NCBI GenBank assembly: GCA_024239075.1
Contig: JANBVI010000009.1
Span: 62,001 to 126,000 of the forward strand
DNA: 64,000 bases
Direction: 5' to 3'
Source of the DNA: Fischerella sp. CENA71
GTDB taxonomy: Bacteria > Cyanobacteriota > Cyanobacteriia > Cyanobacteriales > Nostocaceae
This document shows positions 43,118 to 51,961 of the stretch, one piece after another. A program made the position numbers and the translations under genes. Every line of letters starts with the position of its first letter. The stretch's first letter is position 1. The notes under the pieces are model-generated. The model was not told where the DNA came from. It did not search any database and saw only the letters and a program-made list of their open reading frames with translations.

Positions 43118-44104
43118 ATGTCATGGATGCAGTTAAGTCTCAACACAACAGAAGAGGCTGTCGATTGGGTTTGTAGCCTACTTGCTTCAACTAACTATAC
43201 CAGTGATATTCGGATTACAAAATATACTGAATTCAACTTACACAAACGAACAGATCAAGATATCAATATCACACAACCTTGTTGGGCATTTACTGTCTGC
43301 TTCTATATACCCTGCGACGTTCATACAAATGTACGTAGATCAGAAATTGTTGACTTACTTTCATCCTTAGAACGGGTAGGACTCGCTAGTACTATTCACA
43401 CAAATGTATTTGAGGAAAAACCAGCAAATTCTGAAAAAATTAGTCCCGTTATTCGTCGTATCGGTAAACGTTTTGTTGTGCTTTCTGCTGATACGCCTGA
43501 TCATTCTCAAGCAGTAGACGAAGTTACGTTGAGACTAAAGACAAGTCTTGCTTTTGGCAGTGGTTTACATCCAGCAACTATCCTCAGCCTCCAACTAATT
43601 GAACGTCATGTTGTTCCCAAAATGAATGTTCTTGATCTGGGATCGGGTTCAGGTATTCTGAGTGTGGCAATGGCAAAACTGGGGGCGCAAGTATTGGCGT
43701 TAGACAACGATCCAATTGCTGTGGAATCAACTCATGATGCTGTACATCGCAATCAGGTTGAGCAGCTGGTAACAGTCAGGGAAGGGAGTTTGGGACAGGG
43801 AAGCAGCTTAGGACATTGGCTAGGTAGGGATACAATCAGTAACGTAGTAGCCATTGAACCAACAGCCAGCTTTGATCTCATAGTTGCGAATATCCTAGCG
43901 CGGATACATATCGCTCTCGCTCCTGATTTTCGGCGATCGCTGCGTCACACTGATCAGCAGACAGGTATATTGATTACATCCGGTTTTACCATCGATTATG
44001 AAGATGCAGTGACAACATCTTTGAAAGACGAAGGATTCGAGGTTATTGATTGTGAAAGATTAGATGAATGGGTGGCGCTTGCTTACAGTTTGGGCGTTGC
44101 ATAA
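43118..44104 (+). CDS. prmA: Ribosomal protein L11 methyltransferase-like (PrmA family)
   Basis: This 328-residue class I methyltransferase has the PrmA-type middle: LKTSLAFGSGLHPATILSLQL (about residue 143), NVLDLGSGSGILSVAMAKLG (SAM motif I), LALDNDPIAVESTHDAV and FDLIVANILARIHIAL (motif IV, with the N-I-L catalytic region). PrmA trimethylates L11. The N-terminal 110 residues are unlike the usual substrate-binding domain, and a spacer near residues 225-250 is unusual, so the substrate may not be L11. Start at ATG 43118, with GGAAG as ribosome site inside a folded leader. Confidence 0.78.
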   Translation: MSWMQLSLNTTEEAVDWVCSLLASTNYTSDIRITKYTEFNLHKRTDQDINITQPCWAFTVCFYIPCDVHTNVRRSEIVDLLSSLERVGLASTIHTNVFEEKPANSEKISPVIRRIGKRFVVLSADTPDHSQAVDEVTLRLKTSLAFGSGLHPATILSLQLIERHVVPKMNVLDLGSGSGILSVAMAKLGAQVLALDNDPIAVESTHDAVHRNQVEQLVTVREGSLGQGSSLGHWLGRDTISNVVAIEPTASFDLIVANILARIHIALAPDFRRSLRHTDQQTGILITSGFTIDYEDAVTTSLKDEGFEVIDCERLDEWVALAYSLGVA

Positions 44105-44152: not shown

Positions 44153-44788
44153 TCACTTTGTTCCAAATAATCTATCCCCAGCGTCTCCTAATCCAGGAAT
44201 AATGTAGCCATGATCATCCAACTTTTCATCTATAGCCGCAGTGTATATAGGGACATCGGGGTGTACTTCTGTGAAATGTGCGATTCCTTCCGGTGCAGCA
44301 AGTAAGCAAACAAACTTGAGCGATCGCGGATTGGTTGATTTGAGTCTTTCCACTGCTGCAACAGCAGAATTCCCAGTCGCCAGCATCGGATCGACTACCA
44401 CTACATCTCGCTTTTCTATGTCGTGAGGAACTTTGAAATAATACTCTACAGGAATCAAGGTCTTGGGATCACGGTATAAACCAATGTGTCCCACTCGTGC
44501 TGATGGTAGCAGCTCTAGCATTCCGTCCAAAATTCCCTGTCCTGCTCGTTGAATAGAAATGATCACCAACTTTTTGTCTGATGCAAGCACAGGAGCATTC
44601 ATTTGACCTAAAGGTGTTTGAATTAGTTCACATTTGAGCTTTAAGTCTCGCGTCACCTCATATGCCAACAACATACTAATTTCTTTTAACAAAAAACGAA
44701 ATTTTGCCGTACTGGTTTCAACCTTACGCATCAGCGTCAGTTTGTGCTGAATTAATGGATGCTCAATTAGTATTACTTGATTTCCCAT
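44153..44788 (-). CDS. upp: Uracil phosphoribosyltransferase
   Basis: The start is the ATG at 44788 ([17 protein letters not shown]); the longer frame to 44911 is built from repeat DNA and not used. The 211-residue protein has the UPRT signatures: [56 protein letters not shown] (PRPP loop) and the uracil-binding [17 protein letters not shown] at the C terminus. It makes UMP from uracil and PRPP. It is third in a same-strand series after URC1-like and URC4-like genes. In yeast the URC route also uses a UPRT (Urc6), so it may feed the degradative pathway rather than only salvage. Confidence 0.95.
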
Positions 44789-44790
44789 GT

Positions 44791-44911
44791 TAGTAATTGG
44801 GGGTTGGGGATCGAGGAAAGGGAGATGAGAAGTGTGGGGAGACAAGGAGGACAAAGGAGAATTATTTAACAAGTCTCTTCCCAATGACCATTGACAAATG
44901 ACAAATGACAA
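44791..44911. repeat. Mixed low-complexity repeat between upp and the URC4-like gene
   Basis: A purine-rich block (GGGGGTTGGGGATCGAGG, AGGGAGATGAGAAGTGTGGG) is followed by ATGACCATTGACAAATGACA, a heptamer-type repeat of TGACAAA units. The same TGAC units occur at 46240-46328 and the reverse form at 62311-62343. Confidence 0.6.
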
Positions 44912-46195
44912 CTAGAATACTGTGCCATCACTTTCTATCTGTATAGGAGGAATACCACCTGTGCGGAGTTGAGCAGCTATTTTTCGTCCAGCTGTCCAGG
45001 TTCCTCCTTGTAAAATTTTTACCAATGGTAATTCCTCGTTACTCATACCTAACTTGTCTCGGACTGTAGCGGCGATTTGATCTAGGAGAATTACAGTCAA
45101 GGCGCGCCATTCAACGATAACTTCAGACGCCACTGATTGAGGTTCAGAAAAAATATCTGGGTGTTTACCCTTGATCAGTCCTAAGTCTAGGCATAAGCCG
45201 CCATTGCGATATTCTGGTAATCCAGTCAGAGCATCTAAATTTATTATTTCTATACCTAATTCTTGGAGAGGTTCCAGTAGAGAATAAGTCAGCCACTGAG
45301 ATAGTTTGTGAAAAGGTATCAAACCGTCATCAGTCACGGCTGGATGAAACCAGACATCTCCCAGATTTGCTCTAGCAATTTCTACGCGTCCAGGCCAAAT
45401 GTCGCTAAGTCCTTGCAAAACAGCATTTAATACAGTTGCAGCTGCTAACTGGTTATTTTTTACTTTCGTAAAAAGATAATTTACTAAATTACCAGGGCGG
45501 GGATTTTGTTCCCCAAACATCTGGGGCGAAGCTAGCAGGACTTGACCTAACTTTTGTAATAATTGCGATCGCCCTGCAATTCCCACCAAAGGATTATCTG
45601 CGGTGACACCAAATCCATCAGCTAGTTCTTGTGCTGTTAATTGTTGTAATCTTTGGGCATTTGCTTGTAAAGGTTGATGGCGATCGCTCGCAAAAAGTCC
45701 TTGACAAAACATTTGGTAGCTGGCAACGGCCAAACCTTCAGAACGCCTAAAAATCAACTGAGTTTCTTCTTCATAAAAATGCCAGCGATCGCCAGCACCA
45801 GCATCTAGTAATACACTAATTATTGCTAAATCAAACTTAGCAGCAGCTTTCTCGATTGGCGTCATCTGGGCTAACTTCTGATCTAACTTAGCCAACCGTG
45901 GCACTTCACCAACTTCAAAATGTCGCCAACGACTGTGAAACGGGATTTGTAAATCAGGATATTGCTCCCGTATCACTTCAATCACATAATCTGCTACTCG
46001 TTCCAACTGATCTAAATCGCAAGCAAAATGATCAGACTTACCTGCAACAGCGATTGTAAATATTTGTTCACAACGCTCTCGAATCGCAATTGGCGATCGC
46101 AAATAAGCAACCAGATCAGTTTCTGCTCGTGGCGTTTTACTATTACAATCAGACGCTTGTAACTCTATCGCGTCCTTGGCGGTTTCTATTTCCAC
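44912..46195 (-). CDS. URC4-like protein of pyrimidine (uracil) catabolism, DUF1688
   Basis: The start is taken at the GTG at 46195, 8 bases after AAGGAAG; a GTG at 46222 is also possible. The 427-residue protein fits DUF1688/Urc4: SPIAIRERCEQIFTIA near the N terminus, HSRWRHFEVGEVPRL, LDAGAGDRWHFYEE, FRRSEGLAVASYQMF, RPGNLVNYL, WFHPAVTDDGLIPFHKLSQWL and LKILQGGTWTAGRKIA-like C terminus. Urc4 is required for uracil breakdown in Lachancea kluyveri; its reaction is not well defined. It lies between URC1-like and upp genes on the same strand, the gene set expected for the pathway. Confidence 0.85.
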   Translation of the reverse strand: MEIETAKDAIELQASDCNSKTPRAETDLVAYLRSPIAIRERCEQIFTIAVAGKSDHFACDLDQLERVADYVIEVIREQYPDLQIPFHSRWRHFEVGEVPRLAKLDQKLAQMTPIEKAAAKFDLAIISVLLDAGAGDRWHFYEEETQLIFRRSEGLAVASYQMFCQGLFASDRHQPLQANAQRLQQLTAQELADGFGVTADNPLVGIAGRSQLLQKLGQVLLASPQMFGEQNPRPGNLVNYLFTKVKNNQLAAATVLNAVLQGLSDIWPGRVEIARANLGDVWFHPAVTDDGLIPFHKLSQWLTYSLLEPLQELGIEIINLDALTGLPEYRNGGLCLDLGLIKGKHPDIFSEPQSVASEVIVEWRALTVILLDQIAATVRDKLGMSNEELPLVKILQGGTWTAGRKIAAQLRTGGIPPIQIESDGTVF

Positions 46196-46239
46196 GTTTC
46201 CAACTTCCTTCAACCGACACACCCTCTCAAAAAAGTCAA

Positions 46240-46328
46240 GAGTCCATTGTCAACGGTCAATTGTCAATGGTCAAAAAACCATTTGCTCTGGACAATTGAC
46301 ACTTGACTCTTGACCATTGACCCTTGAC
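46240..46328. repeat. TGACCATTGAC-type heptamer repeats between URC4-like and URC1-like genes
   Basis: Units such as CAATTGTCAATGGTCAA, ACAATTGACACTTGACTC and TTGACCATTGACCC fill the gap. They belong to the common cyanobacterial short-repeat type and make up nearly all of the sequence between the two genes. Confidence 0.7.
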
Positions 46329-47594
46329 TTAATCTGTTAAAGAACGCCCTTTTACTTCCGCTAAATCATCTATCTCCAACACCTTGCCTGTGGTATAATA
46401 ACCAGCAGCTTTTTTGGCTTCAATTTCGACACGGGCATCTTGGGGAACTAACTCTTCGGGAATGGGTATGCGTTCCACAATTTCGATCCCGGCTGTCGTA
46501 ATGGCATTGTATTTCATGTTACTCATTGATACCATGCGATCGATGCGGGTGACTCCCAACCAATGCAAAACATCTGGCATTAACTCCTGAAAGCGCATGT
46601 CTTGCACACCCGCAACACATTCAGTACGAGCAAAATAGGCATCAGCGCGATCGCCTCCTTCTTGTCGCTTGCGGGCGTTGTAAACCAAGAATTTCGTCAC
46701 CTCTCCCAAAGCACGTCCTTCTTTGCGGCAGTAAACAATGATCCCAACACCGCCTTCCTGTGCGGTTTGCACACAAACTTCTATGCCATGTACCAGATAA
46801 GGGCGACAGGTGCAAATATCTGACCCGAAAACATCAGAACCATTGCATTCATCATGTACTCGTACTGCTAAAGGTTTACTAGGGTCGTTAATTGCTGCTA
46901 CATCCCCAACAATATAAACCGTCACACCCCCAATTGGCGGTAAAAATACCTCCAAATCTGTTCGCGTCACTAGTTCCGGGAACATTCCTCCGGTTTGTTC
47001 AAATAAAGCACGTCGTAATTCACCCTCACTGATTTGAAAACGCTTGGCAACTCCTGGTAAATACCAAACTGGCTCAATCGCAGCTTTGGTAACAACCAAA
47101 TCGCCGCCTGGTTTCATAATCTTGCCATCGATCGCCAAGCGTCCTCTGGTCACAGCCTCCAATAATTCAGGCATATTTATGTGGGCTTTGGTAATTGCAA
47201 TCGTCGGGCGAATATCATACCCTTGCTCGTAGTAAGGTGCGAATACTTCACCCACAATTGCCCCAAAGGGATCGAGGGAGACAATCTTATCAGGATCAAA
47301 CCAACTAGGATGCGGTCCGATATGCTCAATTGGAGAAGTATTAGTAAGATCCGCCCTATGATCTGACTGTAATGCACCACTTGCCACTGCTAAGGCACGA
47401 TAAACCGCATAACTGCCAGAATGAGTACCAATCACATTACGGTGTGCTTGCTTTGTCAAAGTGGCAATCACGGGACCCCGTTCCATCGGGTCGCTTGCTC
47501 CCCATTTGATAGGAATTGGTTTGGGGCCAAAGCGACTGGGATGAGAAGTTAGAACTATATGCCTGGAAACGCTGTTTTGGTTTGGCATAGTCAT
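46329..47594 (-). CDS. URC1-like GTP cyclohydrolase II homologue
   Basis: This 421-residue protein is a GTP cyclohydrolase II homologue with an extra N-terminal domain of about 200 residues (ASDPMERGPVIATL, HRNVIGTHSGSYAVYRAL, HINMPELLEAVTRGRL), the layout of Urc1. The C-terminal domain keeps zinc Cys residues (RVHDECNGSDVFGSDICTCR) and VYCRKEGRALGEVTKFLVYN in place of the RibA QEGRGIGL region. Urc1 acts in uracil catabolism, probably opening the pyrimidine ring at the nucleotide level. It is first of a same-strand series URC1-like, URC4-like, upp. The usual riboflavin role is less likely because of the altered motifs and context. Confidence 0.85.
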   Translation of the reverse strand: MTMPNQNSVSRHIVLTSHPSRFGPKPIPIKWGASDPMERGPVIATLTKQAHRNVIGTHSGSYAVYRALAVASGALQSDHRADLTNTSPIEHIGPHPSWFDPDKIVSLDPFGAIVGEVFAPYYEQGYDIRPTIAITKAHINMPELLEAVTRGRLAIDGKIMKPGGDLVVTKAAIEPVWYLPGVAKRFQISEGELRRALFEQTGGMFPELVTRTDLEVFLPPIGGVTVYIVGDVAAINDPSKPLAVRVHDECNGSDVFGSDICTCRPYLVHGIEVCVQTAQEGGVGIIVYCRKEGRALGEVTKFLVYNARKRQEGGDRADAYFARTECVAGVQDMRFQELMPDVLHWLGVTRIDRMVSMSNMKYNAITTAGIEIVERIPIPEELVPQDARVEIEAKKAAGYYTTGKVLEIDDLAEVKGRSLTD

Positions 47595-48020
47595 TTATTT
47601 TTTCTTGGGATATTTCTTATTAGTCACTAGCCAGCAGTCAAACGTCAATAGTTGATGGCTACATGTTCTGTGAGATTTTTTCTATGCTCCATATCTTTAC
47701 AAATATCCTGAAAATTTTACTCACACCCACAAAATCCTCCTACAACCTTAGTAGAGACGCGTAGACGCTCGTAAGAGCGGCTTCAAGGTAAGAGTATAAT
47801 CGCGTCTCTACTACACCTCTACATCCTCTTTTCGCAGAGCTAAAAACCTTCATTCTCTCCGGATTGCACAATACCGTATTACAGGCTACAACAAACCACA
47901 CATTGATTGCTTTAACTTGCAATTTATAAGGGGAATTTTAAAAGGTCGATTAAGAAGTTTATTTTGAGAACGTTTTGTGCGAAATTTGATCCAAAGATAC
48001 TATACTCTCACGTCAAATTC
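47595..48020. other. Intergenic region, mostly dispersed repeat
   Basis: The gap between divergent URC1-like and TPR genes contains a GTAGGAGGATTTTGTGGG-type block (minus strand, 47718-47750), the GTAGAGACGCG element (47751-47811) and about 200 further bases of AT-rich sequence. No gene is supported. Confidence 0.5.
47751..47811. repeat. GTAGAGACGCG element with 11-bp inverted ends
   Basis: GTAGAGACGCG (47751-47761) and CGCGTCTCTAC (47801-47811) are perfect inverted ends around a 39-base centre. Positions 47771-47810 are identical, in opposite orientation, to 52734-52773 (40 of 40 bases). Confidence 0.85.
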
Positions 48021-48491
48021 ATGGATTCTTTATTTGTCAATTCCTTACTTGAAGACTTGAAAAATTCTGATGAAAAAGTCCGCGAACAAGCGACAAAAAA
48101 GCTTTGGCGCATCTGGTATCAGCAAAAGGGAATATATGGCTTAGAAATGATTGAACGCAGTCAGAAATTACTAGATTCAGGGCAAACTAGCAAAGCCGAA
48201 GCAATCTTGACTGAGTTAATTAATGAACAACCAGACTTTGCTGAAGCTTGGAATCGTCGTGCTTTTCTTTATTACACAACTAGCCAGTATGAAAAATCTT
48301 TGGCTGATTGTCTAATGACTATTCAGATTAATACAGTTCATTTTGGCGCATTGCATGGCATGGGCTTAAGTTATGCAGCTTTAGCAGAATACGCAAAAGC
48401 GATCGCAGCTTTTAAGCGCGCCCTCGAAATTCAACCCTATTCTCTGATCAATCAAAAATTAATTCTCGAATGTTCATTTCGATTAAGTTAA
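48021..48491 (+). CDS. TPR-repeat protein
   Basis: The start is put at the ATG at 48021 (MDSLFVNSLLEDLKNSDEK); the frame extends further up but the extension has no support. The 156-residue protein opens with a helical segment (KVREQATKKLWRIWYQQKG, as in cyanobacterial TPR proteins) and has about two and a half tetratricopeptide repeats (residues 45-150: ERSQKLLDSGQTSKAEAILT, PDFAEAWNRRAFLYY, LHGMGLSYAALAEYAKAIAA). TPR domains mediate protein contacts; the partner is unknown. It is divergent from the URC1-like gene. Confidence 0.78.
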   Translation: MDSLFVNSLLEDLKNSDEKVREQATKKLWRIWYQQKGIYGLEMIERSQKLLDSGQTSKAEAILTELINEQPDFAEAWNRRAFLYYTTSQYEKSLADCLMTIQINTVHFGALHGMGLSYAALAEYAKAIAAFKRALEIQPYSLINQKLILECSFRLS

Positions 48492-51523: not shown

Positions 51524-51961
51524 TTAGGAATTTTAACGTACTTTAGCTATGAGCAATTAATTTATTGCAGGGTGCTAATGTGTTTTTGAGGTAAAAACAC
51601 TCGTGAACGGAGTTCAAAGACTCATTGACGAGTATCAAAGACTCATTGACGGAGTTCAAAGACTCATTGACGAGTATCAAAGACTCGTTGACGAGTATTA
51701 AAGACTCATTGACGAGTATTAAAGACTCATTGACGAGTATTAAAGACTCATTGACGAGTATTAAAGACTCATTGACGAGTATTAAAGACTCATTGACGAG
51801 TATTAAAGACTCATTGACGAGTATCAAATACTCGTTGACGGAGTTCAAAGACTCGCTCACGAAGCTCAAATACCTCAATAGGGTTAAGTCGTGACGCCCA
51901 CCCCATAGCGTAAATTAAGCTAAAATTCAAGCAGTGCAAGGACTTTCCCTCTATCTATCCC
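51524..51961. other. Intergenic region dominated by a 21-bp tandem array
   Basis: After rtcA the sequence passes a small hairpin (GCAATTAATTTATTGC, 51553-51568) into the tandem array at 51603-51880, then about 80 bases of ordinary AT-rich sequence with the ccdA promoter region. Confidence 0.6.
51603..51880. repeat. 21-bp tandem repeat array (about 13 units)
   Basis: The unit is TTGACGAGTATTAAAGACTC plus one base, with variants (GACGGAGTTCAAAGACTC, GTATCAAAG). Each unit contains the inverted pair ACTC/GAGT. Frames on both strands stay open across it (heptads SIKDSLT on the plus strand, LVNESLI on the minus strand) because 21 is divisible by three. No ribosome site or good start supports translation. 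Confidence 0.9.

Follow-up and report, generated by a model that had tools for sequence, protein, structure and literature searches.

What does a uracil-degradation gene set do in a photosynthetic bacterium, and which reaction would each of its products carry out? The question is raised by three adjacent genes on the minus strand of a 64,000-nucleotide stretch of contig JANBVI010000009.1 of Fischerella sp. CENA71 (the window, by which we mean the whole stretch analysed), part of a 7.47 Mb genome with a completeness of 99.9%. The original prediction, made from the sequence alone, had placed URC1-, URC4- and uracil phosphoribosyltransferase (UPRT)-like genes here on one strand and had read them as a URC (uracil catabolism) set; coordinates and Pfam and NCBIfam families agree with the former claim, and the latter is supported by the family models and trees as well as by gene order and co-occurrence. 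In Pfam, the first open reading frame (ORF) matches PF12471 (297 bits) and PF00925 (64 bits), both above cut-off, the second matches PF07958 (DUF1688; 526.6 bits against a cut-off of 25) and the third matches PF14681 (UPRTase; 250 bits, above cut-off). The nearest named copies, from Fischerella muscicola, Westiellopsis prolifica, Pelatocladus and Fischerella PCC 9431, are 88–92% identical in DUF1688 and 97.6–98.8% in URC1; the source is accordingly most likely a member of the Hapalosiphonaceae (Nostocales). We consider it quite likely that the three genes form a URC operon with the enzyme flow proposed below. The identity of the pathway is well supported; the enzymatic steps, with all substrates, products and directions of the flow, are ones that we infer from sequence.

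The window set is the standard bacterial URC operon. Conservation and grouping of URC1 and URC4 in bacteria have already been published (excerpts of PMC3869809), and the same gene order occurs on plasmids of Azospirillum, Pseudoroseomonas and Gordonia, where the genes are annotated as ‘GTP cyclohydrolase II’, ‘URC4/urg3 family protein’ and ‘upp’; NCBI already gives DUF1688 the second of these names in 9 of 13 plasmid matches, the other 4 being without annotation. The URC1–URC4–URC6 genes of Lachancea (Saccharomyces) kluyveri share URC1, URC4 (DUF1688) and UPRT with the window, and the same three families recur in Schizosaccharomyces pombe as urg1 (GTP cyclohydrolase II family), urg3 (DUF1688) and urg2 (UPRT), which are described as clustered and uracil-induced (excerpts of PMC2174524). 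A literature search that lay mostly outside subscription journals returned no paper on the URC pathway in cyanobacteria.

Pfam lists DUF1688 as of ‘unknown function’. We find that it is distantly homologous, over nearly its full length, to Qng1 (queuosine-5′-phosphate N-glycosidase; DUF2419; PF10343, Q_salvage), with a profile–profile match that stands above the controls. When 24 DUF1688 proteins were scanned against Pfam at lax thresholds, 16 matched PF10343 (best E 4.2e-4) and at most 3 matched any one other foreign family. An hhalign comparison of DUF1688, Cupriavidus URC4 left out, with four intact Q_salvage proteins (loci L161–L164) gave a probability of 76 and an E of 2.3e-5 over 298 co-linear columns; with one PDB sequence added, the probability was 75 in one direction and 83 in the other. 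Controls drawn from the same loci, 86 in all (26 families and 60 single proteins), reached at most 1.8 against DUF1688 and 6.0 against Q_salvage, reversed profiles 0.2, and DUF1688 against URC1 0.3. At about 21% identity, the two families have 25 positions that are conserved and identical in both, including D140, W147, R218, K306, Q309, Y338, E371, R373 and W409, the last of which is invariant in DUF1688 and aligns to Qng1 W302. The Q_salvage profile matches PDB entries 7uk3, 7u07, 7ulc, 7u5a, 7ugk and 8dl3; PDB sequence searches with a single DUF1688 protein and with its profile returned only weak matches (E 0.34 or worse), which we took as chance, and one scan of viral contigs found no DUF1688 relative.

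Qng1 acts on queuosine-5′-monophosphate (excerpts of PMC11592518 and PMC11130926), and yeast URC4 degrades ribosylurea to urea (excerpt of PMC7530994), as is expected of an N-glycosidase. Because of the Qng1 homology and this yeast reaction, N-glycosidic hydrolysis of (phospho)ribosylurea is the likeliest activity for the family, and Urc4 probably acts as an N-glycosidase, releasing urea from that substrate. Among the papers naming DUF1688 in a literature search largely without subscription journals, we found none on queuosine. Separately, of the four loci with Qng1-like genes, all outside the window's class, two (L161 and L163) have a tgt-like gene, recognised by eye, following the Qng1-like gene.

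URC1 shares its catalytic domain and zinc site with GTP cyclohydrolase II (RibA, RibBA). It differs from RibA in its extra PF12471 domain, in the replacement of the QEGR.IGL stretch by KEGR.LGEV and in falling short of the true RibA model TIGR00505 (57.8 bits against a cut-off of 205.85), whereas it exceeds NF005536, ‘GTP cyclohydrolase II’ (773 bits against 403). The original prediction had reported the change of QEGRGIGL to KEGRALGEV with retention of the zinc Cys residues. The Cys residues are indeed kept, and the change is present but not peculiar to this protein: in an alignment of 33 rows (29 cyanobacterial, 3 other bacterial and PDB 7eev; broken or split copies below 380 amino acids left out), KEGR.LGEV, C250, C261, C263, Y305, D332, R334 and K361 are found in 33 of 33, and position 295 holds A in 32 rows and G in the other. 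By alignment, the E. coli GTP cyclohydrolase II equivalents of the seven residues are C54, C65, C67, Y105, D126, R128 and K154. The closest solved structures, 7eev (68.9% identical to the window's URC1 over 411 columns) and 7ej3, are presumably UrcA, although PDB names them ‘GTP cyclohydrolase II’. The conserved zinc site and the altered KEGR.LGEV region fit an enzyme that would hydrolytically open the ring of another base. A UTP cyclohydrolase has been cited for the URC pathway (Zhang et al. 2021, as a reference in an excerpt of PMC12507026).

The operon was then placed among 292 genomes of the phylum, 139 of them in the window's class. DUF1688 occurs in 25 of the 292, all 25 within that class. 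URC1 is present in 24 of these 25, split in one (G215), and the remaining genome, G039, has a broken URC1 and a DUF1688 that also carries a stop; PF12471 is found in 28 genomes, as 23 intact copies, the G215 copy split over two frames, the broken G039 copy and three short remnants in one genus (g7). The search for URC genes near cyanobacterial homologues, which the original prediction had named as a check, placed URC1 upstream of DUF1688 on the same strand and within 1.7 kb in 25 of 32 loci (one URC1 being broken and some loci coming from near-identical genomes), with no predicted ORF between the two in 19 of these 25. Since so many loci are linked on one strand, the grouping is not due to chance. 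In trees, from which, as from the alignments, broken and split copies (URC1 and URC4 of G039, URC1 of G215) were left out, cyanobacterial URC1 forms one clade against 4 other rows (99/97 support) and cyanobacterial URC4 one clade against 3 other rows (97/92), setting both apart from the other bacterial URC operons; the well-supported groups of the two trees are broadly alike. In genus g7, the decayed remnants of URC1, accompanied in two loci by UPRT remnants, adjoin the TPR gene that also stands beside URC1 in the window's operon, which shows that the operon was lost in place. The simplest reading of these patterns would be that the operon is old in cyanobacteria and has often been lost whole. 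As an observation in its own right, five genomes from a single family encode a class III nucleotidyl cyclase-like protein (PF00211) beside URC1, and in four of these the gene separates URC1 from DUF1688; it would be a surprise if cyclic nucleotides were linked to UTP breakdown.

The third gene appears to be a dedicated enzyme. A second UPRT is encoded on another contig (C76) of the window's genome, and a tree of 48 UPRT rows contrasts 28 URC-associated sequences (from 21 of the 25 DUF1688 genomes, 4 named cyanobacteria and 3 other bacteria) with 20 others, among which the second UPRT of only 12 of the 25 DUF1688 genomes is represented. A branch with 100/99 support has all 28 URC-type sequences, linked to URC1 or not, on one side; two of the 20 ‘housekeeping’ rows (G004 and G032, from outside the class) branch nearer the URC side. 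With this clade present in 21 of 25 genomes, a dedicated UPRT therefore belongs to the pathway in most of them.

For the products, the yeast pathway offers a comparison: there, URC3 and URC5 break urea down and 3-hydroxypropionate is formed (excerpts of PMC7530994 and PMC3869809), whereas the DUF1688 cyanobacteria have urease (25 of 25) and, in 13 of 25, methylmalonate-semialdehyde dehydrogenase (MMSDH). Urease was found in all 28 genomes examined, 25 of them with DUF1688, the window's genome having its copy on contig C8. In a search that scored at most five candidates per genome, MMSDH exceeded the TIGR01722 cut-off in 22 of 292 genomes, 9 outside the class and 13 inside it, all 13 with DUF1688. 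Within the class, 13 of 25 genomes with DUF1688 have it and none of the 114 others does (Fisher P = 8e-12); the counts are 10 of 19 against 0 of 50 by genus (P = 3e-7) and 7 of 11 against 0 of 18 by family, kinship not being modelled in any of these comparisons. The gene directly follows a URC-type UPRT unlinked to URC1 in G157, G255 and G262; in the window's genome it scores 572.9 bits and lies on another contig than the operon. This co-occurrence fits malonate semialdehyde as the C3 product.

One further candidate was rejected as a URC component. An AllA-like (ureidoglycolate-lyase-like) PF04115 gene abuts a URC gene in 6 of the 25 genomes (G005, G008, G060, G116, G172 and G213), scoring below NCBIfam cut-offs where tested. 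PF04115 occurs in 78 of the 292 genomes, 21 of the 25 with DUF1688 and 57 of the 114 other genomes of the class, and in one DUF1688-free genome it lies two genes from an XdhC gene; because it is common without URC genes, we regard it as an associated gene and not as part of the pathway.

The original prediction had also asked whether the pathway supplies nitrogen from pyrimidines. In the window's clade (96/81 support), each of the nine URC1 copies, five of them near-identical, has a GTAN8TAC box 133–295 nt upstream; 2 of the 20 other copies have one as well. Such boxes also precede 15 of 117 control ORFs in the clade's loci and 22 of 341 in all loci, and the window as a whole contains 23 against 9.7 expected; a single box means little because of this over-representation and of the 15 control ORFs, and the weight lies with its occurrence in all nine clade copies and with the full promoter pattern. 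The full pattern GTAN8TAC-N20–24-TAN3T, which we take to be the consensus of NtcA-activated promoters, precedes 3 of 29 URC1 genes (in G019, G030 and G074; loci L036, L044 and L046) against 1 of 341 controls. The operon in the window's clade is probably under nitrogen control through NtcA, and a role in nitrogen supply is supported by the clade's NtcA-like box together with urease in every DUF1688 genome.

Taken as a flow, uracil from RNA turnover or uptake would be joined to phosphoribosyl pyrophosphate by the URC-type UPRT to give UMP, which general kinases would raise to UTP. URC1 (UrcA), the zinc-dependent relative of GTP cyclohydrolase II, would then open the pyrimidine ring hydrolytically, with a split into malonate semialdehyde and phospho-ribosylurea, and URC4, as a Qng1-like N-glycosidase, would hydrolyse the N-glycosidic bond of the latter to yield urea and a sugar phosphate. 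Urease would convert urea to two NH3 and CO2, and MMSDH would convert malonate semialdehyde to acetyl-CoA and CO2. To the full proposal, that Urc4 is a new branch of the Qng1 superfamily turning phospho-ribosylurea into urea and ribose phosphate and that, with UTP cyclohydrolase and MMSDH, it completes a route under NtcA control in which UTP yields urea, ribose phosphate and acetyl-CoA and pyrimidine nitrogen and perhaps carbon are recovered, we give an even chance.

Several observations weigh against this scheme and are considered here with the alternatives to which they relate. It is very improbable that the URC1-like protein serves riboflavin or another GTP-derived product as a GTP cyclohydrolase II of the ordinary kind or a duplicate of one: the retained zinc Cys residues and equivalents of E. 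coli Tyr105, Asp126 and Arg128 speak for it, but the protein fails the RibA model while exceeding NF005536, has KEGR.LGEV in place of QEGR..GL like every other row, closely resembles 7eev, which we take to be UrcA, and is tied to DUF1688 throughout the sample, and the window's genome holds another PF00925 protein elsewhere, RibBA-like, in a 570-amino-acid frame (251 bits). The active-site residue D298 of Qng1 is named in an excerpt of PMC11592518. Its counterpart, presumed to be the D of the DWLLW motif, aligns to Q405 of DUF1688, so substrate handling must differ from that of Qng1. URC4 also lies in a different operon from Qng1 and misses the PF10343 cut-off of 25 bits (12.4 for the window's protein, 13.5 for that of Azospirillum); in the lax scan the window's URC4 matched EcoRI (E 0.027) ahead of Q_salvage (0.12), and the AlphaFold2 model of DUF1688, built with 7 sequences, has a pLDDT of 43, too low to confirm a Qng1 fold (36 for URC1, with 6 sequences). 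The missing D298 and the missed cut-off would suit a URC4 that is no glycosidase and whose target is instead the urea moiety or a ring-opened intermediate formed earlier, its likeness to Qng1 being one of fold only. We consider this unlikely, given the co-linear match over about 300 columns with its 25 conserved identities and the yeast substrate and product in print, ribosylurea and urea, which amount to a glycosidic cleavage (excerpt of PMC7530994).

Other points concern the surrounding steps and the purpose of the N-glycosidase route. Four of the 25 DUF1688 genomes (G039, G062, G195 and G203) have no URC-type UPRT in the set, and 12 of the 25 lack an MMSDH above cut-off, so that the fate of the C3 product must differ there. 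In the window, the NtcA-like box is kept but has no TAN3T (−10) at 20–24 nt, short of an NtcA-type promoter. Searches of the window's genome for NCS1 (PF02133) and NCS2 (PF00860) permeases and for the NF005759 cytosine deaminase found none of them, BMP-type uptake not being among the things searched for; external uracil as the substrate is unproven because no NCS1 or NCS2 base permease is present. These absences make internal turnover a serious rival as the purpose of the operon: the same chemistry would dispose of surplus internal pyrimidine nucleotides, from RNA turnover or UTP overflow, and the dedicated UPRT could salvage uracil of internal origin, a view to which the incomplete promoter in the window adds some weight. 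Set against this are the full NtcA-type promoters of three clade members, which point to nitrogen supply, and the neighbours of URC genes in relatives, namely a cytosine permease (L039 and L117), a cytosine deaminase (L041, and L048 and L054 by clustering with it) and a BMP-type ABC transporter (L046 and Azospirillum). We place disposal of internal nucleotides somewhat below an even chance.

Table 1. Coordinates of the URC genes of the window and of associated features in this and other loci.
Feature	Position	Strand	Remarks
URC1 / UrcA-like, 421 aa	46329..47594	-	PF12471 N-terminal domain and GTP cyclohydrolase II domain; putative UTP cyclohydrolase
URC4 (DUF1688, PF07958), 436 aa	44912..46222	-	candidate (phospho)ribosylurea N-glycosidase, distant Qng1/DUF2419 homologue; start codon uncertain, DUF1688 domain begins at residue 40
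URC-type UPRT	44153..44788	-	ORF reaches TTG at 44911 (252 aa); likely start ATG 44788
NtcA-like box GTAGCCTGTAATAC	47876..47889	-	281 nt upstream of URC1 start
Intergenic filler between URC4 and URC1	46235..46328	.	GTCAATTGTCAATGGTCA-like inverted and direct repeats
Second short block of GTCAATTGTCAATGGTCA-like repeat filler	44885-44911
Divergent TPR-repeat gene	47964..48491	+	syntenic URC1 neighbour in the window's clade
MMSDH of the window's genome (G000)	G000:C6:34347-35774
Decayed URC1 remnants, genus g7	L167:6935-7958, L168:6397-7537, L169:6157-7326		UPRT remnants in L167 and L169
PF00211 cyclase-like genes	L041:10244-11326, L048:6822-7904, L051:10318-11430, L054:10845-11927, L126:4896-6008
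PF04115 genes abutting URC genes	L031:5449-5940, L038:11750-12289, L039:11007-11495, L117:7379-7870, L118:7776-8327, L119:4817-5314

The likely UPRT start was chosen from alignment to other UPRTs and from the ORF lengths of relatives; the TTG that opens the long ORF sits inside intergenic filler. Elsewhere in the window, a PrmA-like methyltransferase gene (43118–44104; 131.8 against the curated prmA cut-off of 183) converges on the operon, and a repeat array at 51543–51894 is open in both directions, with repeated SLILVNE and TSIKDSL peptides.

The genes as such are an ordinary discovery. What is new here is the DUF1688–Qng1 homology, the tie of MMSDH to DUF1688, the separate UPRT clade and the NtcA-like box, and it is the mechanism that is informative: Urc4 gains a proposed function that can be tested, and the C3 step a good candidate. 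Urc4, of ‘unknown function’ in Pfam despite its part in the yeast uracil route, is now linked to a solved and assayed N-glycosidase family; the cyanobacterial association of MMSDH with URC genes speaks for malonate semialdehyde as a product; and through the NtcA-like box, pyrimidine breakdown gains a testable place in the nitrogen economy of cyanobacteria.

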